From: Leptolinea tardivitalis
GTDB taxonomy: Bacteria > Chloroflexota > Anaerolineae > Anaerolineales > Anaerolineaceae
Length of the DNA: 42,875 bases
NCBI RefSeq assembly: GCF_001050275.1
Contig: NZ_BBYA01000013.1
Span: 1-42,875, forward strand
Reading direction: 5' to 3'
How positions within the stretch are numbered: position 1 is the first letter of the stretch; each line of letters begins with the position of its first letter. Shown here in pieces: positions 5,533 to 40,626 of this stretch. Under the pieces are notes generated by a model, which did no database searches, was not told the DNA's origin, and saw only the letters and a program-made list of their open reading frames with translations. A program made the position numbers and the translations under genes.

Positions 5533-5560
5533 TAATACCGGGGGTTATTGGAAGAAATTA

Positions 5561-6717: not shown

Positions 6718-7089
6718 GGTAATTTCCTCCTCCTGGTGAGTATTATAGATCAAATCAGTACCGATTTCAATAGGTTATCGTATTTTTTGAAATTTGGCAA
6801 ATAATTACGCTAACTTTTTTAGAACAACCCCCGGTTTACCGTATTTTTTATCACAAATCCTTTTTTCACGTCAAAATTGGCTGTCTCATTCAGCCGCACC
6901 GAACCACATCCAATCCGGTTGTTTGATTTCCTCCGGATTATTCCATAATAGCACATATATTCTATTATTCAAGTGGCAATTTTTTGTCCGTTAAATCCTG
7001 CCATGCGGTGATATTCCCACGGGATGTCAGTATTCAACTCCACCGGCCCTGTTCAAAAAATCTTCTTCCAAAAAAGGACTAAAGGTACG
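6718..7089. other. AT-rich divergent intergenic region with two direct repeats
   Basis: About 370 bases between the leftward replication operon and the rightward small genes. GGTTATCGTATTTTTT (6773-6788) and GGTTTACCGTATTTTTT (6833-6849) are near-identical repeats 60 bases apart; the second runs into TATCACA, a poor DnaA-box-like word. The stretch is rich in T-runs. It must hold the operon's promoter and is a reasonable candidate for a DNA-unwinding element, but I see no clear gene in it. Confidence 0.5.
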
Positions 7090-7317
7090 ATGCACACAAC
7101 CGATAAAAAGAATATGATAAATTCCATTTCCAGCGAATCGTCCCTCGCATCGTATGCCACCGGCAGCAAAAACCGGGCCGTGATGAATGAGATTAGCATG
7201 GCCATCATGAAGCAGACCATGGACCAGCAAAAGGCGGCCGGTCAGGCTCTTATCGAAATGATCAAACAATCCCCCATGCCCGATGGGACCGGGCAGCTCC
7301 TCAACAAAGCAGCCTGA
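7090..7317 (+). CDS. YjfB-like small protein with C-terminal PDGTG motif
   Basis: 75 aa. The central amphipathic helix (NRAVMNEISMAIMKQTMDQQKAAGQALIEMIKQS) resembles the small YjfB-type putative motility protein family, and the end is PMPDGTGQLLNKAA. I chose the ATG at 7090 because AAAGG lies just upstream. The gene at 8239 ends with a related motif (PLPDGTGRIINKGV), and both are followed by GTAAAACCA and a GGCGACCCT palindrome, so the two units look like old duplicates. Function is unknown; no signal peptide or membrane segment. Confidence 0.6.
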   Translation: MHTTDKKNMINSISSESSLASYATGSKNRAVMNEISMAIMKQTMDQQKAAGQALIEMIKQSPMPDGTGQLLNKAA

Positions 7318-7339
7318 CCAGATTTCAGCGTAAAACCAG

Positions 7340-7364
7340 CGGCGACCCTGAGGGTCGCCGTTTT
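7340..7364. terminator. Palindrome 1: 21-bp inverted repeat of AGGGTCGCC, terminator-like
   Basis: Arms CGGCGACCCT and AGGGTCGCCG are perfectly complementary around one central G, followed by TTTT on the right and preceded by AAAAC on the left. It follows the YjfB-like gene by 22 bases. The arm word recurs at 8041, 8479 and upstream of parA, so it may be a protein-binding site as well as a terminator. Confidence 0.85.
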
Positions 7365-7439
7365 GATTCCTGTGTGATACAGGAGTGTATTGTCTGTGCT
7401 ATACTCGTATTACGATTCGTTTATCGTTCAGAGGTTCGT

Positions 7440-7652
7440 ATGACGTTAACAACGGTATCATCCAAATATCAAATTGTGATCCCAAGGGAAATTCGTGAAA
7501 ACCTGAAGATCAAACCCGGCCAGAAACTGCAGATGATCCAGATTGGCCGCCGGATTGAAATTATTCTCCTTGAACCGATTGAAGCGGCACGAGGAATATT
7601 TCCCCATCTGAATGTAACAGACTACCGCGAACAGGATGACAGAGAAATATGA
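7440..7652 (+). CDS. vapB: VapB-type antitoxin, SpoVT/AbrB fold
   Basis: 70 aa: MTLTTVSSKYQIVIPREIRENLKIKPGQKLQMIQIGRRIEI is the standard AbrB/MazE-like swapped-hairpin DNA-binding domain (T-V-S-x-K-Y-Q-I-V-I-P-x-x-x-R). A short C-terminal tail would wrap the toxin. The start at 7440 has AGAGG five bases upstream; the frame extends further up but without a ribosome site. The stop overlaps the toxin start by four bases (ATGA), the usual toxin-antitoxin coupling. Antitoxins of this type repress their own promoter; a -10-like TATACT lies at 7400-7405. Confidence 0.9.
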   Translation: MTLTTVSSKYQIVIPREIRENLKIKPGQKLQMIQIGRRIEIILLEPIEAARGIFPHLNVTDYREQDDREI

Positions 7653-8023
7653 ACCTTGTGGATACATCGGGATGGTTTGAATATTTTACTGATTCTCCTT
7701 ATGCCCTTTTCTTTTCCGAAGCCATCGAAAACACAGAGTCATTGATTGTTTCCCCATTGAATTACTATGAGATTTACAAACGGGTTCTGCGTGAATTCGG
7801 TCATGATGAAGCCAATCGTGCTATCGGTTTTCTTAATCATGCGCGAGTGGTTGACCTGTCTATTCCGATTTCATTGGAAGCCGCTGAACTTTCAGTGAAA
7901 TATCAATTGCCCATGGCAGACAGTTTGCTTCTGGCCACCGCATTTTCCCAAAATGCGGATTTTTGGACCATGGATTCACATTTCAAAGACGTCCCATCTG
8001 TCAGGTATTTTGAAAAGAAATAA
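7649..8023 (+). CDS. vapC: VapC-type toxin, PIN-domain ribonuclease
   Basis: 124 aa, a typical single PIN domain. The four acidic residues expected for Mg2+ binding are visible: Asp5 in MNLVDTSGWFEY, Glu in NYYEIYKRV, Asp in LPMADSLLLATA and Asp in FWTMDSHF. VapC toxins cleave tRNA or rRNA when freed from VapB. It overlaps vapB by four bases, and a 27-bp palindrome follows 17 bases after its stop. Its place between replication and partition genes suggests an addiction role for the surrounding replicon. No disabling change is seen. Confidence 0.92.
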   Translation: MNLVDTSGWFEYFTDSPYALFFSEAIENTESLIVSPLNYYEIYKRVLREFGHDEANRAIGFLNHARVVDLSIPISLEAAELSVKYQLPMADSLLLATAFSQNADFWTMDSHFKDVPSVRYFEKK

Positions 8024-8040
8024 TATTCCGATTTATTCCT

Positions 8041-8067
8041 AAGCGGCGACCCTGAGGGTCGCCGCTT
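8041..8067. repeat. Palindrome 2: perfect 27-bp inverted repeat of AGGGTCGCC
   Basis: Two 13-bp arms (AAGCGGCGACCCT and its exact complement) lie around one G just after vapC. No T-run follows on the plus strand, so as a terminator it is weak. It shares its core with palindromes 1 and 3 and with the sites upstream of parA, which points to a binding site. Confidence 0.85.
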
Positions 8068-8238
8068 GATTATTCAGGTACAACACTTTACCTTTCCAAA
8101 AATGCTTGCACGCCCCACTTCTCAAAAAATAAACGGGGTTTTTACGCCGCAGGTAAAATCTGGCGTGCTATTTGCACCTTCTTTCCGGCAGATTTGACAT
8201 TACACCAAATCGGATAGTCCATTCCGGGAAAACATAGC

Positions 8239-8460
8239 ATGCCAGAAAAATCGAATCCCTTCAACATCCTTCCGATGGAGTTTTCACCCGCCCTTGCGGC
8301 TACCGTCAAAAAAAGGCCGGCTCTGGTCAGCCAGAGCTTTTCAACTCTTCTCGCACAGACCTGTGAGCCCAATCTGTCAACCGGTGGTTATTCAGGAGAC
8401 ATTCTAAAATATCCTCCCCTGCCCGATGGCACCGGTCGTATTATTAACAAAGGTGTGTAA
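8239..8460 (+). CDS. Small hypothetical protein ending in the PDGTG motif
   Basis: 73 aa, MPEKSNPFNILPMEFSPALAATVK... The last 15 residues (PPLPDGTGRIINKGV) parallel the end of the protein at 7090, and the DNA there (GCCCGATGG, ACCGG) and the following GTAAAACCA plus palindrome are shared too. The ribosome site is weak (GGGAAAACATAGC), so the start is uncertain. The N-terminal half is unrelated to its partner or strongly diverged, so it may be a decayed duplicate. No family recognised. Confidence 0.45.
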   Translation: MPEKSNPFNILPMEFSPALAATVKKRPALVSQSFSTLLAQTCEPNLSTGGYSGDILKYPPLPDGTGRIINKGV

Positions 8461-8478
8461 GTAAAACCAAAACGAACC

Positions 8479-8511
8479 AGAGGCGACCCTAAGGGTCGCC
8501 TCTTCTTTTAC
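8479..8511 (+). terminator. Palindrome 3: perfect 25-bp inverted repeat of AGGGTCGCC, terminator-like
   Basis: Two 12-bp arms, AGAGGCGACCCT and its complement, lie around one A and are followed by TCTTTTA. It lies 18 bases after the small gene's stop. Core identical to the palindromes at 7340 and 8041. Confidence 0.85.
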
Positions 8512-8536
8512 ATTCCTTCAGGCATTCTTTGCCTTA

Positions 8537-8686
8537 AGGCCAGTGTGCAATTCTTTCTATCTGGCCGGAAGGCATATTTTTCTATCTGGCCAGCAGGCAA
8601 TAATTTCATACAGGCCTGCATGCAATAATATCCTTCAGGCCAACGGGCAGCGGTTGCATTCATGCCAGAAAGCAAAAAATACCTCC
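8537..8686 (+). repeat. Six tandem 25-bp iteron-like repeats
   Basis: Units start at 8537, 8562, 8587, 8612, 8637 and 8662 with exact 25-base spacing. The consensus is (A/T)GGCC-N-G-N-A-N-GCAATA-N-TTTC-N-T-N-C; the best pair shares TGGCC, GGCA and TTTC, and the last units are more diverged. A weaker match continues from 8690. Contiguous direct repeats of this size beside rep/par genes resemble the iterons of plasmid origins. There are no unrelated spacers, so it is not a CRISPR array. Confidence 0.8.
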
Positions 8687-8801
8687 GGGAGGCCGGAGGG
8701 AATCTTTTGCCTGTCTTAAGCAGGCAGTTTTTGCACGTCTAAAGAGTGCAAATTTCGCACGTGATTCTTATGATGACTTTAATTAATGACTCTTTATTAC
8801 T
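8687..8801. other. Stem-loops between the iteron-like repeats and the RHH gene
   Basis: GCCTG/CAGGC (8709-8725, loop TCTTAAG) followed by TTTTT, and TTTGCAC/GTGCAAA (8730-8752), are two short hairpins. The first could end transcription coming from the left. The parA-RHH operon ends at 8802 from the other side and may use the reverse face of these stems. No gene is seen. Confidence 0.5.
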
Positions 8802-9224
8802 TTATGGATGTTTTTTTCCATTTTTTGTGATCATTCGCGGAATAACCAGACCGGGCATGAGGTTTTCTGGAAAGTTCAGATTCCAATCATACCGCGGACT
8901 GCGCGATGGCTGCTTCATGGCATCCACATCCACCACGCCACTTTCCAGGTCGTTCAAGAAGCGGATCAACGCCAGGCTCACCAGTTGACTGGCCGGCAGG
9001 CGTTCCCGGTCTGCCAGGTCTTTGATGCGCTGGCGCAGCTGGGGTGGAAGATCGTATGTGGCGCGCTGTTCACGCCGTGAGGTGATCTTTGCCCGTTCCT
9101 TGGCTTTCTTTTCACGCTGCTGCCGGGGCAGCTGGGTTTCGGCTTTGCGCCGCTCCATCCCCGAAAGCAAATCAGCCACAGCCGGGTCGAGTACGGCACG
9201 GCGTTCAAACTTGGGCTCAGGCAT
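8802..9224 (-). CDS. Ribbon-helix-helix protein, probable ParB-type centromere-binding partner of ParA
   Basis: 140 aa. An N-terminal basic, disordered stretch (GMERRKAETQLPRQQREKKAKERAKITSRREQ) leads into a ribbon-helix-helix core: strand RATYDLP, helix PQLRQRIKDLADRERL, helix PASQLVSLALIRFLNDLE. A 40-residue tail follows. The start overlaps the parA stop by eight bases, so it is the second gene of the operon. Many plasmid ParA proteins work with a small RHH protein (ParG, omega) that binds repeats upstream of parA and also represses the operon. The AGGGTCGCC cluster at 10032-10122 is the obvious candidate site. Binding is inferred, not seen. Confidence 0.8.
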   Translation of the reverse strand: MPEPKFERRAVLDPAVADLLSGMERRKAETQLPRQQREKKAKERAKITSRREQRATYDLPPQLRQRIKDLADRERLPASQLVSLALIRFLNDLESGVVDVDAMKQPSRSPRYDWNLNFPENLMPGLVIPRMITKNGKKHP

Positions 9225-9990
9225 CCAGCACCTCCAATAACCGCTCCAAACACTGCGTATAGCCGCCTACATGTTTGTTATTCTCCGTATAGCCGTTCAA
9301 TACGGTTGATTCAGGGGAGTATTCCCACAGACTCTTTCCGAACGCGGCCGCTTCACGGGCGCGGGTATCCTGCGGAATAGGCGGCCAGACCCGCTTGCCA
9401 AAGGTTTTAACAATTTCCTGCAATTGCGCCAGTGTCTCGCGGGTGGTGCGGTCAAAGAACGTGGGCAAAATGGCGTACCCTTCAAAGCTGTGACCGCGTT
9501 GACTCACCTCGCCCATTGTCATCAGGATTTCACGCACACCATCCACTGCCAGGGCATCCAGACGGGTGGGAATAACCACATAGTCTGAAGCCACCAAACC
9601 GTTAACATGCAGCACATCCAGCGAAGGTGCCATGTCGAGGAGAACGGCATCGTAATCCAGATCGGCCAGCGAGTTGGCCAGAATGGATTCGCGGAAATCG
9701 GAAACAGTGATCTGCCGTTTGACCTTCTCTGTCATTTTGTCGCCGGGGAGGATGTCCAGGTTTTCGCGGGCATGCACCACCACCTTGCGCAGCGGCATTT
9801 CATTAACGATCAGGTTGAACAGGCCCGGCTCTTTTTCGCTGCCCAGCGAAAAAGCGACATGTCCCTGTGGATCGAGGTCTACAAGCAGAGTACGGCGGCC
9901 GAGACGGGCCAGTCCATGAGCCAGGGTGACGGCGGTGGTGGTCTTGCCGACGCCGCCTTTTTGATTGGCAAAGGCGATGGTTTTCATCAT
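9217..9990 (-). CDS. parA: ParA-family partition ATPase
   Basis: 257 aa. A deviant Walker A, KGGVGKTT, is in the first 20 residues (TIAFANQKGGVGKTT). Walker A' is LLVDLDPQGHVAFSLG and Walker B is AVLLDMAPSLDVLHVNGL. There is no N-terminal HTH, so it is the short ParA type that relies on a separate DNA-binding partner; that partner is the overlapping RHH gene downstream. In this family ATP-dependent nonspecific DNA binding positions the replicon before division. Two ATG codons lie in tandem at the start; the first has AAGGAACC upstream. The operon promoter must lie in the repeat cluster at 9991-10130. Confidence 0.92.
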   Translation of the reverse strand: MMKTIAFANQKGGVGKTTTAVTLAHGLARLGRRTLLVDLDPQGHVAFSLGSEKEPGLFNLIVNEMPLRKVVVHARENLDILPGDKMTEKVKRQITVSDFRESILANSLADLDYDAVLLDMAPSLDVLHVNGLVASDYVVIPTRLDALAVDGVREILMTMGEVSQRGHSFEGYAILPTFFDRTTRETLAQLQEIVKTFGKRVWPPIPQDTRAREAAAFGKSLWEYSPESTVLNGYTENNKHVGGYTQCLERLLEVLDA

Positions 9991-10031
9991 GGGTAAAATG
10001 GGTTCCTTGAAATGAGCAGATTTCCCGTCTA

Positions 10032-10402: not shown

Positions 10403-13400
10403 TTAGGGTAGATTAATAGGCAAATAATTGTTTTCGATCTGGTGAAAGACGGGGTCCAATTCGGACTGTATTTCAATGGTTTTCTGAATGGCCGTGGCGA
10501 TGCGGGCATACCGACGTGGATCATCCATCAGACGACCTTTGCGGTCTTTCAGGTATTTGTTCAACACCTGGTAGCCGCCGATCTGGTAGGTCCACATTTC
10601 AGGGCTGATACCTTCAAAATACTTGCCTGCGTTGATATGAACCCGGCCGTCAGCCGGGTCATATACGACTTTTTCCACCCGATCGTTGCCGCCACTGCCC
10701 TGGTAGCGGCAGACCGGCGGATCGAGTTCTGGGCTTTCAAGAAGGTGCAGGTCTGCCAGGCGTTTGCCGTAATCCGCCATCTGACGAAAAACAGCATAGT
10801 CACCGGCAAAGGGAACGCGAGGAAAATCAGTCCGCAAATATTCCGCATAAGTGGATCTATATGATGGACAATAAAAAATGCCATAAATGTAATATAGTAT
10901 TTCTTCAGGAATGGGTTGGCGTTCGTAAGCAGAACTTAGGATATTGATTAATTCGGATGAAATGTTAGGTTGGCGTTCTACGGTAGATGATGAAAAGAGA
11001 TCACGTTGGTTTGGATCAGGGTATTGATAAAGAGGAAAAAGGAAATTTCCCTCTTTCAAAGATACTGTATGGTGGGTTATTATCGTTTTAGAAATAAAAA
11101 TATGATCCCAAGTTTTATTTCCTTCAACCCTCTTACTTAAACACAAACCAATATTTTCGCCTTGAATCATGTGACGCATGATTTCAAGTCTCGAACGCTC
11201 CAATAAGGCATCATGATAAAAAATCGTTCTATTATCAAATGGTCTATAAAGAATAGTCCTGAAATAATTCTCTAAATCACTCTCACTTTGAATTATTGAA
11301 CGAGTGTTTTGGAGTGACCAATTTGGCTTATCGATTAATTTATAGGCATTAGCCAAAAGTTCATTGGATATTTGTGTATCCTGTAATTGAAAAATTCTTC
11401 TTTTTAATTGGTCTTTAGAAAAATCGATAATAAAATCGTCCCTCGATGTAACAATCCCCATACGATTGACAAGAAAAGCCTTGTCAATCGGAAACCAATT
11501 TTCATATTGCTTAATGTCTTTTGTCTTCCGTGGAATTAAAAAATAGTGAGGGCTTTCGGGTGATAAAAATGAAAATTGAACTTCTCCAATATCAAGGTTT
11601 TCAAGCCATCGATATTTATTTTCTCTCAATCCAAATAAATCTATTTGCTTAATAACACAATTGCTGGTTTCCAATCCTTTTATCAATAAAACTATTGCCA
11701 CCCCCTGTTGAATATCAAACACATTCTCATCTTTTGAGCCATCCGGTGCAATTTCCTTTTTCAGGCTGTTGCCGTGCAGATTCACGATGTAGATTTCATC
11801 GAATGTCTTCATCAGGCTCTGGCGCATGCCGCGAAAGGTGGGATTATCCAGGTAGCTGTGGTTGGTAATCATCCCCACGATGCCGCGCCCGGCTTTCTCG
11901 ATTTTCCACTGGGCGAATCGCAGAAATTTTACATAATCATCCTGCAGCCATTTCGGATTCTTCTCACCCAATGGTTTGCCATCCACGGAATAATAACTTT
12001 GAGCACCATCCAGATCGGTTTTTAACAGTTTTTCCGTCCACTCAGACCTGTTGGCAGACATACCCGAATACGGCGGATTCCCCATGATCACCAGAATGGG
12101 ATCCTGTTTCTTCACCTTTGCCGCCAGTTTGCTTTCATGACTCAGGGCGCTCAGTCCGGGCAGAGCAGTGGCTTCAATCTCCTTCATATCCAGAGTGTTT
12201 GTCAGATAGAGATTAAAGCGTTCGCCGTTCTGCAGAGTGTAGCCCAGTTCTTCGAGCAGCAGGTTGATCTTCATGTGCCCCATGGCGTAGGGTGCCATCA
12301 TCAACTCAAAGGCATAAAAGTTCTTCAGGATGTGTTCCTGAATAAAACGCGCCTTGCCGCCTTCCCCGTATTTCCGGGTGAATTCATCCACAGCCAGCCG
12401 GATGGCTTCCGCCGGAAAAGTCAACGTGCCGGCGGCCGGGTCGAGCATGGTAACTTCGGGGCTGGCAAGTCCATCACTTAATCCAAAGCGGGTTTTTAAA
12501 AGATCGTGAATCGAACGTACGATGAACCCAACCACCGGTTCCGGGGTGTAGTACACCCCGCGAGCTTCCCGCAGAGCCGGATCATACACACTCAGGAAGG
12601 TTTCATAAAAATGCATGATCGGGTCTGAGCCCTTCCCCTGGCGTGCATACTGGTGCAGAATGGCATCAATATCCGCCACGCTGAGTACATCAGCAATATC
12701 ATCAATGATCACTTCCATTTGGGGTGACGGATTGCCCAGGGAAATATACTGGAAGACATCGTGTAAAATACCAATGGACCGGGGAATGAAATTGACGGCT
12801 GTCTGGCGGGAGAAGGATTCTCCACTGCGGGAGCGAGCGGCAAACAGGCCGTACGCAACGGTCTGTGCATAAAGATCTGCAAACGTCTTCTCGTCCAATG
12901 CGGGAATCAAATATTTCTTGAACGCCTCAAAAAAGCCGTGTAATTGGTTTGGTTGTTCCTGTTGTTCCTGAATTTCCTGCGATACGATCTCATCACGTAG
13001 AAATCGGGTACGTTTTGCCAATTCACGCGCCAGAGTGTTGGCGGTGAACGTTCGGGGAAGTGAAAAATTAAAGAAATACTCGATCAGTTCAGCAAACTGT
13101 TCCTCATTTTCCAACGGTGGGAGTGTTCTCAACTTTTTCGCAATAAATTGACGCCCGATTTGTACCTGTTTAATCAGGTTTCCTTCCCGGTACAACCGAA
13201 ATTCATAAAAATCTGTCAAAATCAGGTTGGGAAAGGTTTTCAAGTACCGCTTAAGTTGGTCAGTAGTTTCCACCTGGTCCAGGTTGGTGCCCGGTTTCTT
13301 GGCTTCAATATAGCCGGTGATATGTTGACGGCCATCCCAAACACGAAAATCGGGATTACCGGCTTCCGTCTTTTTGGGCAGGGTTGTGACCTTTACTGTT

Positions 13401-13519
13401 TTGGTAGCGAGTGTAAGCAGCAAGGTTTCAAGGGTACTGTAATACGATTCCTCACGGGAATCGTCCCGTTGAGTGATTTCGGAAATAGACGCCAGGTAAT
13501 TCTGCAATGTTTGTGTCAT
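10403..13519 (-). CDS. Type IIG/ISP-like restriction-modification enzyme (nuclease plus N6-adenine methyltransferase)
   Basis: 1038 aa. The N-terminal part has a PD-(D/E)xK-type pattern (NPDFRVWDGRQHITGYIEAKKPG, residues about 55-77). The methyltransferase core has the AdoMet motif I as MLDPAAGTLTFPAEA (about 360) and catalytic motif IV as IMGNPPYSGM (about 480), the gamma-class order of Eco57I-like enzymes. Residues about 590-880 form the probable target-recognition region and are conspicuously AT-rich. The C-terminal part (SYRSTYAEYLRTDFPRVPFAGDY) is like the specificity domain of type ISP enzymes. No helicase domain and no separate R or S gene are present, so it probably cuts and methylates by itself. 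dinD lies 65 bases upstream on the same strand. Confidence 0.85.
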   Translation of the reverse strand: MTQTLQNYLASISEITQRDDSREESYYSTLETLLLTLATKTVKVTTLPKKTEAGNPDFRVWDGRQHITGYIEAKKPGTNLDQVETTDQLKRYLKTFPNLILTDFYEFRLYREGNLIKQVQIGRQFIAKKLRTLPPLENEEQFAELIEYFFNFSLPRTFTANTLARELAKRTRFLRDEIVSQEIQEQQEQPNQLHGFFEAFKKYLIPALDEKTFADLYAQTVAYGLFAARSRSGESFSRQTAVNFIPRSIGILHDVFQYISLGNPSPQMEVIIDDIADVLSVADIDAILHQYARQGKGSDPIMHFYETFLSVYDPALREARGVYYTPEPVVGFIVRSIHDLLKTRFGLSDGLASPEVTMLDPAAGTLTFPAEAIRLAVDEFTRKYGEGGKARFIQEHILKNFYAFELMMAPYAMGHMKINLLLEELGYTLQNGERFNLYLTNTLDMKEIEATALPGLSALSHESKLAAKVKKQDPILVIMGNPPYSGMSANRSEWTEKLLKTDLDGAQSYYSVDGKPLGEKNPKWLQDDYVKFLRFAQWKIEKAGRGIVGMITNHSYLDNPTFRGMRQSLMKTFDEIYIVNLHGNSLKKEIAPDGSKDENVFDIQQGVAIVLLIKGLETSNCVIKQIDLFGLRENKYRWLENLDIGEVQFSFLSPESPHYFLIPRKTKDIKQYENWFPIDKAFLVNRMGIVTSRDDFIIDFSKDQLKRRIFQLQDTQISNELLANAYKLIDKPNWSLQNTRSIIQSESDLENYFRTILYRPFDNRTIFYHDALLERSRLEIMRHMIQGENIGLCLSKRVEGNKTWDHIFISKTIITHHTVSLKEGNFLFPLYQYPDPNQRDLFSSSTVERQPNISSELINILSSAYERQPIPEEILYYIYGIFYCPSYRSTYAEYLRTDFPRVPFAGDYAVFRQMADYGKRLADLHLLESPELDPPVCRYQGSGGNDRVEKVVYDPADGRVHINAGKYFEGISPEMWTYQIGGYQVLNKYLKDRKGRLMDDPRRYARIATAIQKTIEIQSELDPVFHQIENNYLPINLP

Positions 13520-13584
13520 GAGTTCCCACCATCATTGGTTATGTATAAAAGGTATTATAGCCTTTCAACCAGACGAAAAATTCT

Positions 13585-14439
13585 TTACTGGTCTTCATCC
13601 CCATCCTTTTTCTGTACATCCTTTAATAACTTTTTCTCGTCGCTAACCAATTTGCGCTGTGTTTTTTTGATATCATCCGCCGCTGGCAATGCTTCAGGTC
13701 TGACTCCGCGTTCGATTAACATTTTCCGCACAGCTTTGTTGTTATCCACATGTTCATGGGTGATGTCATTTTCACCGTTAAGGTCCTTTTCAATCACATT
13801 GTGGCTGGTCAGTTCGTTGGCGAAATCTTTTGCCTTGATGGTGAGGGTGGGCAGAAAATCTGCCAGAGGGCGACCGTCGGGCACAGCCAGTTTCTTCTTC
13901 ATCTCGCCGGTTGAATAACCGCCAAACAGCGCCTGATCCCCTTTCGATCGGATGATACCGAAACCACGGTCATCCACCCCCCGTTCATAAATAATCCCAG
14001 AGAGTTTCTTTTCAGACTGGGTCAATTTTTCGCGAGCGGTCACGCGGGCAACATCCAGGAGTCGCTGGGCAATGACCTCCTGTCGGCGGGTTTGAACGGC
14101 AAAATAGGTTTGGGCAAAGGCGATCTCGTTTTTAGCCGGGTCGCCATTCTGGGCGATCAGGTAGCAGGCATAGCGGGTTAAGGCCAGGTCTTCCACCTCG
14201 CGGGTCGCCCCACTGCCAAGTTCGACCATTTTCCCGACATCGGCAAAATGGTCTGAAACGGATATACCGGCGTTCTTGCAGGCGTTTTTCGCTTTAAGAA
14301 TACTATTTTTGAAATTATCCCATTTGGAATACCCCAGGATTTCCTGCAAGTCGCGGGCGCTCCAACATTCAATGTCGTTATACAGGTAACAGGCAGCTTC
14401 AAATTTATGAAACAACTCATTGATCATTTCCGGTTTCAT
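13585..14439 (-). CDS. dinD: DNA damage-inducible protein D
   Basis: 284 aa. The BRO-N-like N-terminal half ([38 protein letters not shown]...) and the following [40 protein letters not shown] run are characteristic of DinD. The C-terminal half is charged and helical ([37 protein letters not shown]). DinD inhibits RecA filament activity in E. coli. The start is the ATG six bases after AGGAGG rather than the GTG inside that ribosome site. Such genes often travel with restriction-modification genes, as here; expression may be damage-linked, but I found no clear LexA box. Confidence 0.9.
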
Positions 14440-14572
14440 TTGCACCCTCCTTAATATGAATATATGGAAAGAAATTGCCCTTTTTACTAAACCACGATCA
14501 TTTTGTAGACGTCAACAAAATGCTACTACATCTCAACTTAACGTACTCCCCCACCAAGGTCACCCAACTACC

Positions 14573-16024
14573 CTATCCCCACCCCAACAGACCGCCGAAC
14601 ACCCGCAGGGCAGAGACGACATCCGGCAAACAGAACCAAACCCACCCGAAGGCCACATAATGAAAGGTCAAAAACCAGCCGCCAAACCCGAGGGCTTTCC
14701 TGCCCCAGTCCGAGGTGACCCGCGGCGTGATGGTGCGTTTGGCCCAGTCTGAATAACGATTCTGGACGAAAAGTCCCAGCCCGTGCCACAATCCCCAGAT
14801 GATGAAATTCACGGTGATACCGTGCCACAGGCCGATGAGCAGCATGGTGCCCAGCTGGCCGATCAGCATAACCAGAAGCGGTGAAAGGCTGGATTTGTTC
14901 ACCCGCAGCCAGCGGGTGACCGGGTTGAAGAAATAAGCGCGCACCCAGTTGGTGAGTGTCATGTGCCAGTTGTTCCAGAACTGCGTCAGGTTGGTGCGGC
15001 CGTAGGGATTGTTGAAGTTCTCGGGCAGGCGGATGCCCAGTATGCGCGACATACCGAGGGCGATATCGGTGTAGCCGCTAAAGTCAAAGTAAATTTGCAG
15101 GGCATACCCGTAAAGCAGCACCCAGTACCAGGCCGGGTGAATCACCTGACCGGCCGTGCGGGGATTCAACGCCACAATGGCCAGCGTATCGGCCACGGCG
15201 AATTTTTTGAACAGGCCGATAATCAACCGGCGCAGGGCTTCGGCGGTCTCGTTGCGGTCGAGCGGGGCAGGAGAGCGCAAATCTTTCAGGAATCGTTCCA
15301 GCCGATCAATTGGGCCGGAGCTGAAGGCTGGAAAGAAGACGGCATAGATCAGGTATTCTGCCAGGGTGGCCGTAGGCAGGCGGCCAGATTGCCGGTCGCG
15401 CAACGTATGGATCAGGCGAAAAGCCAGGTATGAGTACCCCAGCCAGCGGAAATCTATCGCGGATGCTCCGGCGGTGTTCTGCCCGGCGGCTGTGCGCAGG
15501 GTGATAGAGACGAATTGAGCCAGGAACGGGGATTTGAGCAGCAAGAACAGGCCGATCAGGACGGCGAGCATGATCCCCAGGAGTCGTTTATTGTTGCGTA
15601 TAGATAAAAATAGTATTCCGCCCAGCACAGCCAGGCCGATCAGTGATTGCAGCAGGGGAGGGGGGGCCAGAGTCAGCCAGCCCGCCGGCAGGCGAATCAG
15701 CGAGGTGAACGCCGTCAACAGGGCGGCAGCCACCAGACCCAGCAGGGCAGGGGCGTTAACTTTGAAGGAACGTTCTTCCGCCGGAGTGACGGCCGCCCAG
15801 CAGAGAACCGTCAGAACCAGGGTGAGGGTGGGCAGCCAGAAATCCAGACCGCGGATGGGCAGAGATGGTTGCAGCCAGTAAACCGCCAGAACAGAGGCGC
15901 CAAAAAGGAAAGCCGTTCGTCCCCACTCTTTTGACGGGTCAGGTGAATGGGGTGTTATGAACCGCGCCAGCAGACGGTAAAGCAGGGCGGCACAGAAAGC
16001 GGCAAGAATCTGGGGGAGTGACAC
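14573..16024 (-). CDS. MBOAT-family membrane O-acyltransferase (DltB/AlgI-like)
   Basis: 483 aa with roughly a dozen membrane segments. Diagnostic motifs are YGYALQIYFDFSGYTDIALGM, RTNLTQFWNNWHMTLTNWVRAYFF and IGLWHGITVNFIIWGLWHG; the last carries the conserved catalytic-channel His. Members transfer acyl groups (acetyl, D-alanyl) to an extracytoplasmic polymer across the membrane. It starts at GTG four bases after a 38-aa DltX-like microprotein gene, itself overlapping a lipoprotein gene, so the three form a coupled operon. There is no dltA/dltC in the window, which argues against a classical D-alanylation operon. The acceptor is unknown. Confidence 0.88.
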   Translation of the reverse strand: MSLPQILAAFCAALLYRLLARFITPHSPDPSKEWGRTAFLFGASVLAVYWLQPSLPIRGLDFWLPTLTLVLTVLCWAAVTPAEERSFKVNAPALLGLVAAALLTAFTSLIRLPAGWLTLAPPPLLQSLIGLAVLGGILFLSIRNNKRLLGIMLAVLIGLFLLLKSPFLAQFVSITLRTAAGQNTAGASAIDFRWLGYSYLAFRLIHTLRDRQSGRLPTATLAEYLIYAVFFPAFSSGPIDRLERFLKDLRSPAPLDRNETAEALRRLIIGLFKKFAVADTLAIVALNPRTAGQVIHPAWYWVLLYGYALQIYFDFSGYTDIALGMSRILGIRLPENFNNPYGRTNLTQFWNNWHMTLTNWVRAYFFNPVTRWLRVNKSSLSPLLVMLIGQLGTMLLIGLWHGITVNFIIWGLWHGLGLFVQNRYSDWAKRTITPRVTSDWGRKALGFGGWFLTFHYVAFGWVWFCLPDVVSALRVFGGLLGWG

Positions 16025-16028
16025 CGGA

Positions 16029-16145
16029 TTAAAATCCCTGATAGATCCACAGGGGAGTGGAATCGGCAGTAAAAATGAGCAGCGCCAGCAGCATCAGAGC
16101 CAGCAGCACAGCCCAGGCATTTTCTTTCGTAAAGAGGCGGTTCAT
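16029..16145 (-). CDS. DltX-like 38-aa membrane microprotein
   Basis: The protein is one N-terminal basic stretch (MNRLFTKENAW), one membrane helix (AVLLALMLLALLIF) and a short tail ending LWIYQGF. The size, single helix and C-terminal (F/W)IYxxF ending are those of DltX. That microprotein precedes dltA in Gram-positive dlt operons, and its C-terminal tyrosine motif is implicated in acyl transfer with the MBOAT DltB. The start ATG overlaps the stop of the lipoprotein gene by one base (TAATG), and the stop lies four bases before the MBOAT start, so coupling is tight. This is family inference from a very short protein, but the context is strong. Confidence 0.75.
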   Translation of the reverse strand: MNRLFTKENAWAVLLALMLLALLIFTADSTPLWIYQGF

Positions 16146-16546
16146 TACTTCGTGTAGCCGCACATTCGCCATTCCCCGCCTTCCTGACTTACCAGGTAGG
16201 GGCGGCGGTCCAGCGGAATTTCCTGATCTTCATTCCCGTAGGTAGCCACAATTTTGCCGGTGCAGGTGACTTTGGCTGAAGTGCCTTCGTCGCCGGCTTT
16301 GGTGCAGGTCACACCATCAAGGCGGGCTTTCACCGCCTGAAAGGAATCTGCTTCAAGACGGGCTTTCTCTTCCCAGGCCTTGCATGATACAGTGGTCAGG
16401 CGGTTGACATCCTGGCTGACCAGGGCGTTCAGGTAAGTTTCAACGGCTTTTTCTGGTCCTGCCGCCGCTGATGTGCCACCGCAGGCAGATAAAACTGCCG
16501 CACCAAGGGAAAGAATCACAACCAGGGAAACGGTACGAAACGACAT
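16145..16546 (-). CDS. Secreted lipoprotein with NTF2/DUF4878-like domain
   Basis: 133 aa. A signal peptide with lipobox (MSFRTVSLVVILSLGAAVLSACGG) is followed by a short linker and a domain beginning GPEKAVETYLNALVSQDVNRL. That opening is the usual start of DUF4878/NTF2-like lipoproteins. Four cysteines (SCKAW, GVTCTK, KVTCTG, RMCGY) lie in the mature part and could form two disulfides. The start is set by CGGAGGGTTGC before the ATG. It is the first gene of the operon with the DltX-like and MBOAT genes, so it may help present or recognise the acylated substrate. That role is inference. Confidence 0.8.
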   Translation of the reverse strand: MSFRTVSLVVILSLGAAVLSACGGTSAAAGPEKAVETYLNALVSQDVNRLTTVSCKAWEEKARLEADSFQAVKARLDGVTCTKAGDEGTSAKVTCTGKIVATYGNEDQEIPLDRRPYLVSQEGGEWRMCGYTK

Positions 16547-19157: not shown

Positions 19158-19296
19158 TCCGTATTAAGCAATTCAATGCTTCACGAAAGAAGGAGGTGGT
19201 TAATTCGATCGTAAGGTAAGCAAGAGTTGTAGTTTTGTGTTGTTTGTTGTGTTGTGTCGGATCACCAAATTGTTCAAATTTATCTGGAGGAAGAGC

Positions 19297-21531
19297 ATGT
19301 TTAAGAAGTTGATGCCTTTCGTCAGCGTTGTATTAGCGCTGACCTTTGTTCTTGCTGCTTGCGCTCCGGCTGCTGCCACCGCAGCTCCCGCCGCCGTTGA
19401 ACCAACCAAAGCAGAAGCAGCCGCCCCTGCGGCTGAAGCGGGAAAATTAGCCGTTGGTATCGTACTGCCCACCAAAGATGAACCGCGCTGGGTACAGGAC
19501 GAAACCCGTTTCAAAGATGCCCTGAAAGCTGCCGGATACGATGTTGAAATTCTGTTCAGCCAGGGTGATTCCGCCAAGGAAGCCTCAAATGTTGAGGCAT
19601 TAATTGCCAAAGGTATCAAAGTTTTGATTATCTGCCCGCAGGACGGAAAAGCAGCTGCCGCAGCCGTAGAAAAGGCGAAAGCCGCCGGCGTGAAAGTGAT
19701 CGCCTACGACCGTCTGATCACCAACACCGATGCCGTTGACTTCTTTGCGACCTTCAACAGTTTCAATGTTGGTAAAGCCCAGGGTCAATTCCTGGTAGAC
19801 AAAGCCGGTGATGGCAAGGGACTGCCCCTGTATCTGTATGCCGGTGCTGCTTCAGACAACAACGCCTTCGTGTTCTTTGCTGGCGCCTGGTCAGTATTGC
19901 AGCCGAAAGTGGCAGATGGCACCTTTGTCATCAAGAACTCCAGCGAAGCTGTAGCCCTGCAGGGCAAAGCCGAACTGACCCGAGATGAACAGGCCAAGAT
20001 CATTGGTCAGATCACGACGAACTGGGACTTTGCTGTCGCCAAGACGCTGGCGGAACAGAACCTGACGGCTGCCAAAGCCGAGGATAAGGGCAATGTCTTC
20101 ATCCTGGCTCCGAACGATGGCACCGCCCGCTCTATTGCTGATACGTTTGCAGCTGACAAGGATGTGAAATCCTACGTTGTTACCGGGCAGGATGCTGAAA
20201 AAGCCTCTGTTCAGTACGTCATCGATGGCAAACAGTCCATGACCGTGTTCAAAGATGTCCGCACCCTGGTCAAAGATGCCATTACCACCGCAGTGGCCTT
20301 CCTGAAGGGTGAAACACCCCAGGCTCCCGGTAAAGAGAACAACGGCAAGATTGACGTTCCCGCCACCGAATCCGAAGTTGTGACCGTGACCAAAGAAAAC
20401 GTCAAAGCTGTTTTGATCGACTCCGGTTACTATCCTGCCTCTGAATTTACCGGTCTCGATGCGGCGGCCGCCGCACCAGCAGCACCTACCGCCCCTGCGG
20501 CTGAAGCGGGGAAATTAGCCGTTGGTATCGTACTGCCCACCAAAGATGAACCGCGCTGGGTACAGGACGAGACCCGTTTCAAAGATGCCCTGAAAGCTGC
20601 CGGATACGATGTTGAAATTCTGTTCAGCCAGGGTGATTCCGCCAAGGAAGCCTCAAACGTTGAGGCATTAATTGCCAAAGGTATCAAAGTTTTGATTATC
20701 TGCCCGCAGGACGGAAAAGCAGCTGCCGCAGCCGTAGAAAAAGCGAAAGCCGCCGGCGTGAAAGTGATCGCCTACGACCGTCTGATCACCAACACCGATG
20801 CCGTTGACTTCTTTGCGACCTTCAACAGCTTCAATGTTGGTAAAGCCCAGGGTCAATTCCTGGTAGACAAAGCCGGTGATGGCAAGGGACTGCCCCTGTA
20901 TCTGTATGCCGGTGCTGCTTCAGACAACAACGCCTTCGTGTTCTTTGCTGGCGCCTGGTCAGTATTGCAGCCGAAAGTGGCAGATGGCACCTTTGTCATC
21001 AAGAACTCCAGCGAAGCTGTAGCCCTGCAGGGCAAAGCCGAACTGACCCGAGATGAACAGGCCAAGATCATTGGTCAGATCACGACGAACTGGGACTTTG
21101 CTGTAGCCAAGACGCTGGCGGAACAGAACCTGACGGCTGCCAAAGCCGAGGATAAGGGCAATGTCTTCATCCTGGCTCCGAACGATGGCACCGCCCGCTC
21201 TATTGCTGACACGTTTGCAGCTGACAAGGATGTGAAATCCTACGTTGTTACCGGGCAGGATGCTGAAAAAGCCTCTGTTCAGTATGTCATCGATGGCAAA
21301 CAGTCCATGACCGTGTTCAAAGATGTCCGCACCCTGGTCAATGACGCCATTACCACCGCAGTGGCCTTCCTGAAGGGTGAAACGCCCCAGGCTCCCGGTA
21401 AAGAGAACAACGGCAAGATTGACGTTCCCGCCACCGAATCCGAAGTTGTGACCGTGACCAAAGAAAACGTCAAAGCTGCTTTGATCGACTCCGGTTATTA
21501 CAAAGCCTCTGACTTCAAGGGTCTAGAGTAA
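19297..21531 (+). CDS. Sugar-binding lipoprotein with two tandem, nearly identical ChvE-type domains
   Basis: 744 aa. A signal peptide with lipobox (MFKKLMPFVSVVLALTFVLAACAPA) precedes an Ala/Pro linker, then two periplasmic-binding domains of about 340 residues each. The 1068-bp unit begins at 19423 and again at 20491. The copies differ at about eleven bases before the last few codons; only two of these change the protein (K to N in DVRTLV-KDAI, V to A in KENVKA). Each domain opens KLAVGIVLPTKDEPRWVQDETRFKDALKAAG (shown only in part in homologs) and is of the xylose/ChvE multi-sugar type. Start set by GGAGGAAGAGC. The mmsA-like and mmsB-like genes follow. A single domain is normal, so the fusion is unusual. 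Confidence 0.93.
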   Translation: MFKKLMPFVSVVLALTFVLAACAPAAATAAPAAVEPTKAEAAAPAAEAGKLAVGIVLPTKDEPRWVQDETRFKDALKAAGYDVEILFSQGDSAKEASNVEALIAKGIKVLIICPQDGKAAAAAVEKAKAAGVKVIAYDRLITNTDAVDFFATFNSFNVGKAQGQFLVDKAGDGKGLPLYLYAGAASDNNAFVFFAGAWSVLQPKVADGTFVIKNSSEAVALQGKAELTRDEQAKIIGQITTNWDFAVAKTLAEQNLTAAKAEDKGNVFILAPNDGTARSIADTFAADKDVKSYVVTGQDAEKASVQYVIDGKQSMTVFKDVRTLVKDAITTAVAFLKGETPQAPGKENNGKIDVPATESEVVTVTKENVKAVLIDSGYYPASEFTGLDAAAAAPAAPTAPAAEAGKLAVGIVLPTKDEPRWVQDETRFKDALKAAGYDVEILFSQGDSAKEASNVEALIAKGIKVLIICPQDGKAAAAAVEKAKAAGVKVIAYDRLITNTDAVDFFATFNSFNVGKAQGQFLVDKAGDGKGLPLYLYAGAASDNNAFVFFAGAWSVLQPKVADGTFVIKNSSEAVALQGKAELTRDEQAKIIGQITTNWDFAVAKTLAEQNLTAAKAEDKGNVFILAPNDGTARSIADTFAADKDVKSYVVTGQDAEKASVQYVIDGKQSMTVFKDVRTLVNDAITTAVAFLKGETPQAPGKENNGKIDVPATESEVVTVTKENVKAALIDSGYYKASDFKGLE

Positions 21532-21551: not shown

Positions 21552-21595
21552 ACTGGTGATGGCGTTAGACCGCCATCACCAGTTTTGCACTTTTT
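21552..21595 (+). terminator. Strong stem-loop between binding-protein and ATPase genes
   Basis: ACTGGTGATGGCG and CGCCATCACCAGT make a 13-bp stem with a 6-base loop, followed by TTTGCACTTTTT. It is probably a leaky terminator or mRNA-stabilising structure that keeps binding-protein expression above that of the membrane parts. Confidence 0.75.
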
Positions 21596-21618
21596 ATAGC
21601 AATAAAGCTGGAGCATAT

Positions 21619-23139
21619 ATGGCCACTCCAATTCTGGAAATGAAAGGCATTACCAAGGAGTTTCCGGGCGTTAAAGCGTTAAGCAACGTTAGTTTTCAGG
21701 TAGCTGAAAACGAGATTCACTGCCTTGTCGGTGAAAATGGAGCCGGGAAATCTACCCTGATGAAAGTTTTAAGTGGAGTTTATCCGCATGGTACTTATAC
21801 CGGCGAGATCCTCTTCAATGGAAAAGAACAGAAATTCGGTGGTATTGCCGATAGTGAAAAGGCCGGAATTGCCATTATCTATCAGGAAATGGCACTTGTT
21901 CCGGAAATGACCGTTTATGAAAACATCTTCCTTGGTCACGAGATCGGCAATGGGACTGTAATTGACTGGGATGAAACCATTAAACAGGCTGGCGATATGC
22001 TCAAACGCGTTCGCCTCGATGTAAATCCGGCAACCAAGGTGAAAGACCTGGGAGTGGGGAAGCAGCAACTCGTTGAGATTGCCAAAGCCTTAAGCAAAAA
22101 TGTCAAATTACTGATCCTGGATGAACCAACCTCTGCCTTGAATGAAGATGATTGTGAGAACCTCTTTAAGCTTCTCCGTGAATTAAAACAACATGGGGTA
22201 ACCTGCGTTCTTATATCTCATAAATTAAAAGAAGTGATTGGCATTGCAGATACGGTCACCGTGTTACGTGACGGAAAAACGATCTGCACCCTCGATGCAA
22301 AAGCCGGGGAAGTCAGTGAAAGTATATTGATCAAACACATGGTAGGCCGTGAAATCAATAACGTCTACCCGCCGAAAGACCATAAACCATCGAATGAGGT
22401 TGTGCTTGAAGTAAAGAACTGGTCTGCCTATAACACCGTCCTCGGACGGACCATCCTGAAAGATGTCAATTTCTATGTGAAAAAAGGTGAAGTTGTCGGT
22501 TTCGCCGGTCTGATGGGTTCGGGTCGGACAGAACTGGCACTGAGCATATTTGGCAATCCAGATCATTATCGGATTAGCGGTGAATTGTTTCTCAACGGAA
22601 AAAAACGGACCTTCCATAACCCGCAGGAAGCAATTGACGCCAAGATCGCTTATGTGACGGAAGACCGCAAGACTGACGGTCTGATACTCATACAGGATGT
22701 AAAACAAAACATCACCCTGGCAAATTTGCACGAAATTGCCAACAACGGAGTGGTAGACAACAACGCCGAAGTCAAGGTAGCCACCGGTTACCGGGGTGAG
22801 CTGAACATTAAAACGCCTACCATCGAGCAGAAAGTTGGCAACCTGAGCGGCGGTAATCAGCAGAAGGTTTCACTGGGGAAATGGCTGTTCGTCAAACCGA
22901 ATGTGCTCATACTGGATGAACCCACCCGCGGTATTGATGTAGGCGCAAAATATGAAATCTACACCATCATGACCCGGTTGGTGAAGCAGGGCATGAGCAT
23001 CATCATGATTTCATCAGAATTGCTGGAAGTACTGGGAATGAGCGACCGCATCTATGTCCTTTCCTCCGGAAGAATCACGGGTGAGTTGCCGATTGAGGAA
23101 GCGACCCAGGAAAAAATTATGAAATTGGCAACGGATTAA
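21619..23139 (+). CDS. mmsA: Multiple-monosaccharide ABC transporter ATPase (MmsA/GguA-like)
   Basis: 506 aa with two ABC domains, as usual for this family. The first has Walker A GENGAGKST, signature-like LGVGKQQLVEIAKAL and Walker B LLILDEPTSAL. The second has the degenerate GLMGSGRTELALS at the Walker A position, the signature LSGGNQQKVSLGKWL and VLILDEPTRGIDVGAKYEIY. It powers uptake of pentoses or hexoses delivered by the upstream binding protein. The start at MATPILEMKG follows CTGGAGCATAT. The permease gene begins 12 bases after its stop, so these two are co-translated. Confidence 0.93.
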   Translation: MATPILEMKGITKEFPGVKALSNVSFQVAENEIHCLVGENGAGKSTLMKVLSGVYPHGTYTGEILFNGKEQKFGGIADSEKAGIAIIYQEMALVPEMTVYENIFLGHEIGNGTVIDWDETIKQAGDMLKRVRLDVNPATKVKDLGVGKQQLVEIAKALSKNVKLLILDEPTSALNEDDCENLFKLLRELKQHGVTCVLISHKLKEVIGIADTVTVLRDGKTICTLDAKAGEVSESILIKHMVGREINNVYPPKDHKPSNEVVLEVKNWSAYNTVLGRTILKDVNFYVKKGEVVGFAGLMGSGRTELALSIFGNPDHYRISGELFLNGKKRTFHNPQEAIDAKIAYVTEDRKTDGLILIQDVKQNITLANLHEIANNGVVDNNAEVKVATGYRGELNIKTPTIEQKVGNLSGGNQQKVSLGKWLFVKPNVLILDEPTRGIDVGAKYEIYTIMTRLVKQGMSIIMISSELLEVLGMSDRIYVLSSGRITGELPIEEATQEKIMKLATD

Positions 23140-23150
23140 GGAGGACCGCC

Positions 23151-24332
23151 ATGTCTTTTGGAGCAAATCTTAAGAAAGTATTTTCGCAGAACATCCGCGA
23201 ATATGGAATGTATATCGCCCTGTTCGTGATCATGGCGATCTTTGCCGTCACGACCAAAGGCACGTTCATTTCCGCCCGCAATATCAGCAACCTGGTCAAC
23301 CAGATGGGATACATTGCCGTTCTGGCTGTGGGTATGATGCTGGTCATTGTAGCCCGGCAGATTGACCTTTCCGTCGGTTTTCTGGCTGGTTTCCTGGGGG
23401 CTGTGGCGGCCATCGCCATGACCCAGTGGAATTTACCCGTCTTTATTGTCATTCCGATGATTCTTGTCTTCGGTATTCTGGCCGGGTTGTTGACCGGTTT
23501 CATGGTTGCCCAGTTGAAGATTCCCGCTTTTGTGGCTTCCATGGCTGGATGGCTGGCTTACCGCGGATTGATCCTTCTGGTTACCGAAGCCACCGGTACC
23601 ATCATCATTCCCGATGAAACCTTCAATGCCATCGGGAACGGATTTATCCCAGATTTCGGCGGTTCCTTCCTGCCGGGAATTCACAAGGTTTCCCTGCTCA
23701 TCGGAATCATTGCCATCGTGGCATTCATCTACAACGAAATCCGCAGCCGCAATAAGAAACAGGCCTACGGGTTTGAGGTACTGCCCACCGAAATGTTCAT
23801 CATGAAACTGGTGATCATTTCGCTGTTGGTGGGAACCATCTCCTGGATTCTGGCCTCCTACCAGGGCTTTTCCTGGACACTGGTGATCGTGCTCATTGTG
23901 GCGGGAGTATATGATTTTGTGGCCAATAAAACCATTATCGGCCGCCATATCTATGCCGTTGGCGGCAATCCTGAAGCCGCTGAATTGAGCGGAATCTCCG
24001 TCAGTAAGATCCTCTACCTGGTATTTGGTTCCATGGGTATGCTGGCGGCACTCTCCGGTATTCTGTTTGCCTCACGCCTGAAATCTGCCACCACCACAGC
24101 CGGCAACCTGTTCGAAATGGATGCCATCGCCGCCTGTTATATCGGCGGTGTATCGGCGGCTGGCGGTGTCGGCAAGATCATGGGTGCCATCATTGGCGCC
24201 CTGGTGATGATGTCACTTCAGAACGGTATGCAGCTAATGGGTACCGGCATCTCGCTGCAGTATGTGATCAGAGGTCTTGTGTTGACGGCAGCTGTGATCT
24301 TTGATGTAGCCACCCGCAACCGCGCCAAATGA
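23151..24332 (+). CDS. mmsB: Multiple-monosaccharide ABC transporter permease (MmsB/GguB-like)
   Basis: 393 aa with about ten membrane segments. NLVNQMGYIAVLAVGMMLVIVARQIDLSVG, AVGGNPEAAELSGISV and ACYIGGVSAAGGVGKIMGAIIGALVM are hallmarks of the BPD_transp_2 sugar permeases, and the length (near 400 rather than 330) fits the GguB/MmsB group. It forms the homodimeric membrane channel of the transporter. RBS AAGGAGGACCGCC. It is the last gene of the operon. Confidence 0.93.
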   Translation: MSFGANLKKVFSQNIREYGMYIALFVIMAIFAVTTKGTFISARNISNLVNQMGYIAVLAVGMMLVIVARQIDLSVGFLAGFLGAVAAIAMTQWNLPVFIVIPMILVFGILAGLLTGFMVAQLKIPAFVASMAGWLAYRGLILLVTEATGTIIIPDETFNAIGNGFIPDFGGSFLPGIHKVSLLIGIIAIVAFIYNEIRSRNKKQAYGFEVLPTEMFIMKLVIISLLVGTISWILASYQGFSWTLVIVLIVAGVYDFVANKTIIGRHIYAVGGNPEAAELSGISVSKILYLVFGSMGMLAALSGILFASRLKSATTTAGNLFEMDAIAACYIGGVSAAGGVGKIMGAIIGALVMMSLQNGMQLMGTGISLQYVIRGLVLTAAVIFDVATRNRAK

Positions 24333-39594: not shown

Positions 39595-40626
39595 ATGAAA
39601 CGATTTATCCAATATATATCCCTTTGTATTTTCCTGACCGGGTGTTCCACCATCGGTCAGGCTGCCAGTTTATCGGTTGATCCTACAGCCGCCATGCAGA
39701 CGTCTGTTGCTTTGCAGGTGCAAACCCTGAGTGTTCAACAGACAGATGTTGCCCGTCAGGTGCAGACAATGTCGGCTGCTTTGCCTACCCAGACGGCCTC
39801 TGTTCAACCTACACAGAATCCGCCCACCCAACCGGCCAATCAGCCGTCACAATCACCCACCCGACCGGTCGTTCCCACGCTCACTCCAGGCCCAAGTCCT
39901 ACACCTGAGAACAGTCTAACCTCCCAGGGTTGGGGACAGGCGCCCATCATTCCCACAGTGGGAACCCGGGCAAAGGAAATTTATCAACGCGGTTTGCTGA
40001 TGGGTAATGATCCCCGACATTTTTCGGTAGCCGGTGATTGCCAGTCAGTGCCGCAGGTTTTTATGGGCATTTTTGATGGAGACCGTTACCGCCTTTCAGA
40101 TGCTGACAAAGCACTACAGGAGACGATTGATAATTTCAAAGGACAGTTTAGCCGAGATGGAGTAGCCGTCCGCCAGGGTTTCGGGATCACTTCTATCCTT
40201 GACCCAACCTGGTCTGAAACCGGGATTTGCGATGCCAGCGAGACTCCATTGGATTGTGAATTCCGGGTTAACAAACCTTCAATTCTCTTTATTAATATGG
40301 GAACGAATTGGAAGAACGGCAATGCCGAAGGGTATGAAAAATACCTCCGTCAGGTGGTGGACATCTGCCTGGAACACGGCGTTTTACCTATCCTTTCCTC
40401 TAAAATTGATAACATCGAAGGCGACCATTCCATTAATAAGGTGACCGCTTCTGTAGCACACGATTACGACCTGCCATACTGGAATACCTGGCTGGCTGCC
40501 GACAGTCTGCCGCACCACGGATTGGATAGTGACCGCGGGGATATTTACTTTTCCACAGATGCCCAGTATGTGCGCGAACTAAGCGGCCTGCGGGCATTGG
40601 ATGCCGTCTGGCGCGGAGTCAGATAA
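39595..40626 (+). CDS. SGNH-like secreted lipoprotein
   Basis: 343 aa. A lipoprotein signal (MKRFIQYISLCIFLTGCST) and a Gln/Thr/Pro stalk (to about 115) precede a globular domain. GNDPRHFSVAGDCQSVPQVF resembles an SGNH block I with Cys in the usual serine area and Ser two residues on. ILFINMGTNWKNG is reminiscent of block III (GxND-like), and the C-terminal DSLPHHGLDSDRGDIYFS region could hold the catalytic His. The fold is therefore SGNH-like but the triad is not canonical. It might bind or modify an extracellular glycan. ATG is preceded by only a weak ribosome site. Confidence 0.6.
   Translation: MKRFIQYISLCIFLTGCSTIGQAASLSVDPTAAMQTSVALQVQTLSVQQTDVARQVQTMSAALPTQTASVQPTQNPPTQPANQPSQSPTRPVVPTLTPGPSPTPENSLTSQGWGQAPIIPTVGTRAKEIYQRGLLMGNDPRHFSVAGDCQSVPQVFMGIFDGDRYRLSDADKALQETIDNFKGQFSRDGVAVRQGFGITSILDPTWSETGICDASETPLDCEFRVNKPSILFINMGTNWKNGNAEGYEKYLRQVVDICLEHGVLPILSSKIDNIEGDHSINKVTASVAHDYDLPYWNTWLAADSLPHHGLDSDRGDIYFSTDAQYVRELSGLRALDAVWRGVR

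Follow-up and report, generated by a model that had tools for sequence, protein, structure and literature searches.

The locus studied here lies on a 42,875-nucleotide contig of Leptolinea tardivitalis (NZ_BBYA01000013.1, assembly GCF_001050275.1), the whole of which was analyzed and is referred to below as the window. Three closely spaced genes on the minus strand encode a conserved lipoprotein, a DltX-like microprotein, and an MBOAT acyltransferase (Table 1). The lipoprotein gene starts at 16546 and ends with a stop codon at 16147-16145, overlapping by one base the ATG of the microprotein at 16145. Translated from this ATG the microprotein reads MNRLFTKENAWAVLLALMLLALLIFTADSTPLWIYQGF, with its stop codon at 16031-16029, and four bases separate this stop from the GTG start of the MBOAT gene at 16024. 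This spacing confirms the preliminary description of the locus, which had placed a 38-residue frame with one membrane helix between the lipoprotein and MBOAT genes. The helix is the only hydrophobic one in the peptide (best 17-residue hydropathy, 2.68). An alternative in-frame ATG at 16172 is preceded, 6 nucleotides upstream, by AGGAAGG, a stretch that doubles as coding sequence for the conserved C-terminal part of the lipoprotein. The frame had been described as too short for usual annotation, but its orthologue in Leptolinea sp. HRD-7 is annotated, as a "hypothetical protein" (BCY19582.1, plasmid AP024711.1; 144 nucleotides including the stop codon).

Table 1. Genes of the locus and candidate partner genes in the window, elsewhere in the same genome (contig C12), and on HRD-7 plasmid AP024711.1
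Feature	Position	Strand	Remarks
Conserved lipoprotein, first operon gene	16145..16546	-	133 aa; lipobox Cys and four more invariant Cys; NTF2-like model
DltX-like microprotein	16029..16172	-	38 aa (start at ATG 16145) or 47 aa (start at ATG 16172); C terminus PLWIYQGF
DltB-like MBOAT acyltransferase	14573..16024	-	483 aa; without C-terminal tyrosine motif; Pfam, NCBIfam, and PDB matches
SGNH-B lipoprotein	39595..40626	+	343 aa; homologue of SGNH gene beside MBOAT/SGNH-A in relatives; weak matches
SGNH-A	C12:102086-103141		
SGNH-B, second and longer copy	about C12:143603-145867		754 aa; weak PD40 match
ACP	about C12:143312-143557		
FAAL	C12:138509-140179		
HRD-7 MBOAT	184290		
HRD-7 SGNH-A	61600		
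HRD-7 SGNH-B	26477 and 29500		
HRD-7 ACP	about 31.5 kb		
HRD-7 FAAL	148818		

MBOAT orthologues were drawn from 147 genomes of the family, 66 of which have one at a chosen cut of E ≤ 1e-70. We examined 40 of these loci. Thirty are the top scorers, headed by the locus in the window; the other 10 were chosen from further down the ranking and include a second paralogue in genome G065. Frames were sought without reference to the motif: they had to span at least 30 codons, include hydrophobic sequence, and stop at -140 to +60 relative to the MBOAT start. A one-helix frame ending in WIYQGF lies directly upstream of the MBOAT gene at all 40 loci, its stop codon falling at -5 to +21 relative to the MBOAT start codon; two loci yielded one additional unrelated frame each. 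Because position and hydropathy alone recover the frame at every locus, its presence is beyond chance. The helix is variable, with 45 to 76% identity to the window's microprotein over 23 homologues, and the proline and the last six residues are invariant among all 24 sequences. The codons for the C-terminal residues differ among 40 distinct DNA sequences while the peptide stays constant; this codon set was selected by a pattern that partly or fully fixes the last eight residues, and the 40-locus frame test is the unbiased one. The preliminary description had seen in this peptide a DltX-like acyl relay encoded outside a dlt cluster, and both the constant C-terminal motif and the recurrence of such frames upstream of family MBOAT genes support that view.

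The Pfam DltX model (PF12459) matches neither the window's microprotein nor any among 24 homologues. The structural trait of DltX is present, in that a single membrane helix is followed by a C-terminal FxYxxF-like hexapeptide in which Trp replaces the first Phe. Aligning the microprotein with true DltX by hhalign gives a probability of 92.7 over 22 columns, mostly the end of the helix and the motif. PDB searches with the microprotein or its profile returned nothing relevant.

The window's MBOAT scores 74.9 bits against Pfam MBOAT (PF03062; cut-off, 27) and 220.8 bits (E = 3.2e-65) against NCBIfam LTA_dltB (TIGR04091), below the equivalog cut-off of 375, and matches DltB in the PDB (6bug) at E = 2.8e-41. 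It is 73% identical to its counterpart in G066, a genome of the same Leptolinea genus group, which we take to be HRD-7. In a 56-row tree, one branch, with an SH-aLRT value of 99 in a quick search without bootstrap, sets 28 other MBOATs apart from the 23 of the microprotein clade, with which five DltBs taken from dlt operons are grouped. The same split is obtained when the alignment is reduced to columns at least 85% occupied. A pattern of our own making for the conserved WH histidine, [GA][LFMI]WH[GA], fits all 23 clade rows of this set and misses three of the five DltB rows. The 28 comparison proteins are three from the window's genome and 25 of lower identity (20 from family genomes and 5 from genomes with FAAL-microprotein pairs).

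A C-terminal tyrosine hexapeptide of the PatA/AlgI type is found on none of 40 clade MBOATs. Outside the clade, the C terminus reads xYxxF in 27 of the 28 comparison MBOATs and xYxxY in the other, with an aromatic residue two positions before the tyrosine in 24; the three from the window's genome end in YIYGNF, FVYQGF, and FVYQGF. Since the clade MBOATs are without the motif that the 28 others carry, the microprotein probably supplies the acyl-carrying tyrosine in trans, like DltX. This case is built from sequence, which leaves some room for a microprotein that serves the MBOAT as a structural or assembly subunit and whose tyrosine bears no acyl group. We regard such a role as very improbable, as WIYQGF is identical at all 40 loci on a variable helix and resembles the FVYQGF fused to two paralogous MBOATs of the same genome.

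Larger neighborhoods were examined at 21 loci (20 and L071, an operon described below). All have the gene order lipoprotein, microprotein, MBOAT. Genes for a membrane-anchored SGNH protein, SGNH-A, and a secreted lipoprotein, SGNH-B, lie nearby in 18 and 17 of them, respectively, and their relative order varies. Ten neighborhoods include a gene for an acyl carrier protein (ACP), and eight include one for a ligase resembling fatty-acyl-AMP ligases (FAAL). A scan of a species-genome collection with P[LQ]WIYQGF, in which the motif is present by construction, gave 199 confirmed relatives. Among the best 80 of these 199 loci, 78 come from genomes classified as Chloroflexota and 2 from genomes with no phylum given; an MBOAT gene lies directly downstream of the microprotein in 70, the lipoprotein gene directly upstream in 54, and a FAAL gene directly upstream in 7. 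Three of the best 80 have neither MBOAT nor FAAL adjacent: in L189 an SGNH-B gene stands between microprotein and MBOAT, in L207 SGNH-B genes follow the microprotein, and L194 is an unrelated neighborhood. In 50 of the best 80, the MBOAT adjoins the microprotein and the downstream sequence extends for 6 kb or more. With both strands counted, SGNH-A is encoded at 46 of these 50 loci, SGNH-B at 29, ACP at 22, and FAAL at 19, never without ACP.

With SGNH-A so frequent at these loci, the "minimal" lipoprotein-DltX-MBOAT system first described is not supported; in the genus Leptolinea the SGNH genes stand away from the MBOAT gene. The predicted structure of SGNH-A (pLDDT 92.1) matches SGNH hydrolases, E. 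coli thioesterase I best (Z = 17.3 over 171 residues, 2.5 Å), and aligns with four DltD entries at Z = 14.7 to 15.0 over 270 to 291 residues (root mean square deviation, 4.9 to 5.1). The GDS serine (S92) and a C-terminal histidine (H342) are invariant across 38 homologues. A PDB sequence search with the SGNH-A profile gave no match. Neither SGNH-A nor SGNH-B reaches the Pfam cut-off for any SGNH family; for SGNH-A the GDSL match is below the cut-off. The placement of SGNH-B among SGNH proteins is suggested by weak profile matches: its family profile matches E. coli thioesterase I at E = 5e-4, and the protein of one relative matches Lipase_GDSL_2 at E = 6.9e-6, under the cut-off, while the window's copy has no GDSL match.

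The lipoprotein had been proposed to take the place of DltD. We considered and rejected this candidate: its model (pLDDT 89.4) resembles NTF2-like folds weakly (best E = 2.8e-4; TM scores of about 0.45 to 0.58), and relatives encode SGNH proteins beside the MBOAT. The four cysteines beyond the lipobox are invariant among 37 homologues, and a PDB sequence search with the lipoprotein profile gave no match. This protein may have an accessory role.

The FAAL-like ligase scores 363.8 bits (E = 1e-108) against NCBIfam PRK09192, below the cut-off of 600, and 361.4 bits against the CoA-ligase model PRK07768, which is slightly ahead of PRK09192 for one of three ligases (L041); the best PDB match is a fatty acyl-adenylate ligase, 3pbk. 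All 13 collected ACPs carry [IV]DS[FL], which we take to be the usual phosphopantetheine site. The pairing of FAAL with ACP points to acyl-ACP as the donor, with a fatty acid as the probable acyl group. In the 147 family genomes, orthologues of FAAL and MBOAT occur together in 46, MBOAT alone in 20, FAAL alone in 6, and neither in 75 (Fisher P = 7e-16, not corrected for relatedness). At the seven loci with FAAL directly upstream of the microprotein, the MBOAT is not adjacent. In three of these genomes a complete MBOAT orthologue lies elsewhere with SGNH-A after it, and its 1.5-kb flanks show no motif-bearing frame; another genome has a fragment of the MBOAT at the end of a contig, then SGNH-A; and in the remaining three no MBOAT orthologue was found at the search level used. 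Thus, the microprotein accompanies FAAL and not MBOAT in at least three genomes, which ties the FAAL and MBOAT modules together. This FAAL is not obligatory, as it is near the MBOAT in only 8 of the 21 neighborhoods and absent from 20 of the 66 MBOAT-bearing family genomes.

This patchiness, along with the presence of ACP downstream in only 22 of 50 loci, speaks for the alternative that the same relay draws on acetyl- or acyl-CoA as in PatA, and that FAAL and ACP form a separate lipid or secondary-metabolite module. We consider a CoA donor unlikely, if worth keeping in mind. Even in neighborhoods lacking FAAL (L052, L053, L098, and L100), an ACP gene comes after SGNH-B within one operon; FAAL can directly precede the microprotein, and the MBOAT is of the DltB-like kind and not fused to the motif. 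An acyl-ACP donor remains the reading that we prefer. The preliminary description had envisaged a relay with both a different donor and a different acceptor; it is the donor on which these data bear, the FAAL-like ligase and ACP making a donor system unlike D-alanine/DltA probable.

In the window's own genome the partner genes are scattered (Table 1), and from the relatives we infer that they may nevertheless belong to one pathway. The SGNH-B gene in the window is a probable dispersed partner of the MBOAT. It is directly followed by a metallo-beta-lactamase-fold hydrolase (40662-41447), and HRD-7 has a similar pair (L073:6463-8261). Between the ACP and FAAL genes of the window's genome (L072:2219-5130) lie an LPG-synthase-TM-like protein and a 658-residue protein without a Pfam match. 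The pieces are also scattered in HRD-7, yet all of them lie on one 212,187-bp plasmid. Genome G065 has scattered pieces and, in addition, a second, compact operon (L071) with the order lipoprotein, microprotein, MBOAT, SGNH-A, SGNH-B, the MBOAT being 48% identical.

Several other features of the window were recorded. A DnaA_N-domain protein, an AAA ATPase, and a ParA-like protein (4606-10000) suggest a plasmid; judged by the ParA-like and DnaA_N proteins, contigs C12 and C13 may be plasmid-borne. A type ISP restriction-methylase (1,038 residues) and a Bro-N protein (10403-14445) are found downstream of the MBOAT gene, where many relatives have SGNH genes. A 764-residue frame at 19237-21531 contains two near-identical tandem copies of a protein resembling periplasmic sugar-binding proteins; genes for an ABC-type ATPase (21556-23139) and a permease-like protein (23151-24332) come next. 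Tandem repeats of 33 bp occur at 172-538 (11 copies) and 2182-2299 (3.6 copies), the consensus of the latter being close to the reverse complement of that of the former.

A canonical dlt operon in the window's genome was also considered and rejected. DltX (PF12459) has no match in the whole genome at E ≤ 0.001 and two weak ones, on other contigs, at E up to 1; DltD (PF04914) has none at E ≤ 0.01 in this genome (G000) or in G066; and the three matches to DltA (TIGR01734) in the window's genome are all below the cut-off, the best being in a 1,052-residue frame. The earlier statement that dltA, dltC, and dltD are missing is correct for the window if Dlt proper is meant, but does not extend to putative functional counterparts, which are encoded on contig C12 and, in the window itself, by the SGNH-B gene. 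In a class-level sample the microprotein profile finds 95 of 396 genomes, and in a phylum sample 32 of 380, all 32 listed as the window's own family, order, or class. Seven class genomes have a DltX over the Pfam cut-off, and four of them (G235, G439, G455, and G443), in each of which DltD adjoins DltX, also carry the microprotein elsewhere. Since the two shuttles occupy different places in these four genomes, they belong to separate systems. This coexistence bears on the idea that the system is a true Dlt system which has diverged but continues to transfer D-alanine or some other amino acid. The gene logic is the same (ligase, ACP, MBOAT, DltX-like peptide, and SGNH protein), and the ACP has DltC matches below the cut-off. 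We nonetheless think such a system improbable, given the operons with recognized DltX and DltD in the same genomes and a ligase that is FAAL-like by both its best PDB match and NCBIfam.

Taken together, the microprotein is likely the acyl shuttle of a Dlt-like, carrier-protein-dependent pathway that acylates the envelope, probably with fatty acyl groups and not with D-alanine. In this pathway, the FAAL-like enzyme would charge the dedicated ACP, and the DltB-like MBOAT would transfer the acyl group across the membrane to the WIYQGF tyrosine. The microprotein would then pass it to the serine of membrane-anchored SGNH-A (or of secreted SGNH-B), which would esterify an extracellular acceptor. What we observed is gene conservation, motif invariance, the motif-less MBOAT, gene neighborhood, and predicted folds; each chemical step, the fatty-acid nature of the acyl group, the acceptor, and an accessory part for the lipoprotein we infer. 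According to a 2025 paper (PMC12148441), PatA acetylates the tyrosine of its own C-terminal hexapeptide, PatB accepts acetyl from such a hexapeptide, and the hexapeptide for DltB and DltD comes from DltX; an acyl relay is supported here because the anatomy matches that of PatA/PatB and DltX/DltB/DltD as described there.

The same paper describes MBOAT/SGNH pathways other than Dlt as having neither a carrier protein nor a DltX-like microprotein (PMC12148441). The system described here contrasts with that statement, as it seems to have both and yet not to be Dlt, which suggests that D-alanylation is not the only process to use a split shuttle. It may, with somewhat less than even confidence on our part, represent a third class of MBOAT/SGNH acylation, carrier dependent like Dlt, with fatty acids loaded by FAAL and a separate tyrosine microprotein, by which many Chloroflexota would acylate an extracellular polymer through an undescribed route. 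A literature search of titles and the beginnings of abstracts, with most subscription papers outside its reach, did not find the system. Single genomes that hold both MBOAT types allow fused shuttles to be compared naturally with separate ones, and from the proposed pathway one would expect a so far unrecognized acylated polymer on the surface of Anaerolineae and their relatives.

With PatA/PatB, AlgI/AlgJ/AlgX, and similar systems, this one shares an MBOAT, an SGNH protein, and a tyrosine hexapeptide; in those systems the motif is fused to the MBOAT C terminus, and the donor is an acyl-CoA, with no carrier protein or microprotein (PMC12148441). More is shared with Dlt (DltX/DltB/DltC/DltA/DltD), the teichoic acid D-alanylation system: a one-helix hexapeptide microprotein, a motif-less DltB-type MBOAT, a carrier protein, an adenylating ligase, and an SGNH partner. 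Unlike Dlt, the system here has a FAAL-like ligase in place of DltA, a microprotein missed by Pfam DltX, an extra NTF2-like lipoprotein, a second SGNH protein, and another gene order, and in some genomes it coexists with dlt operons.
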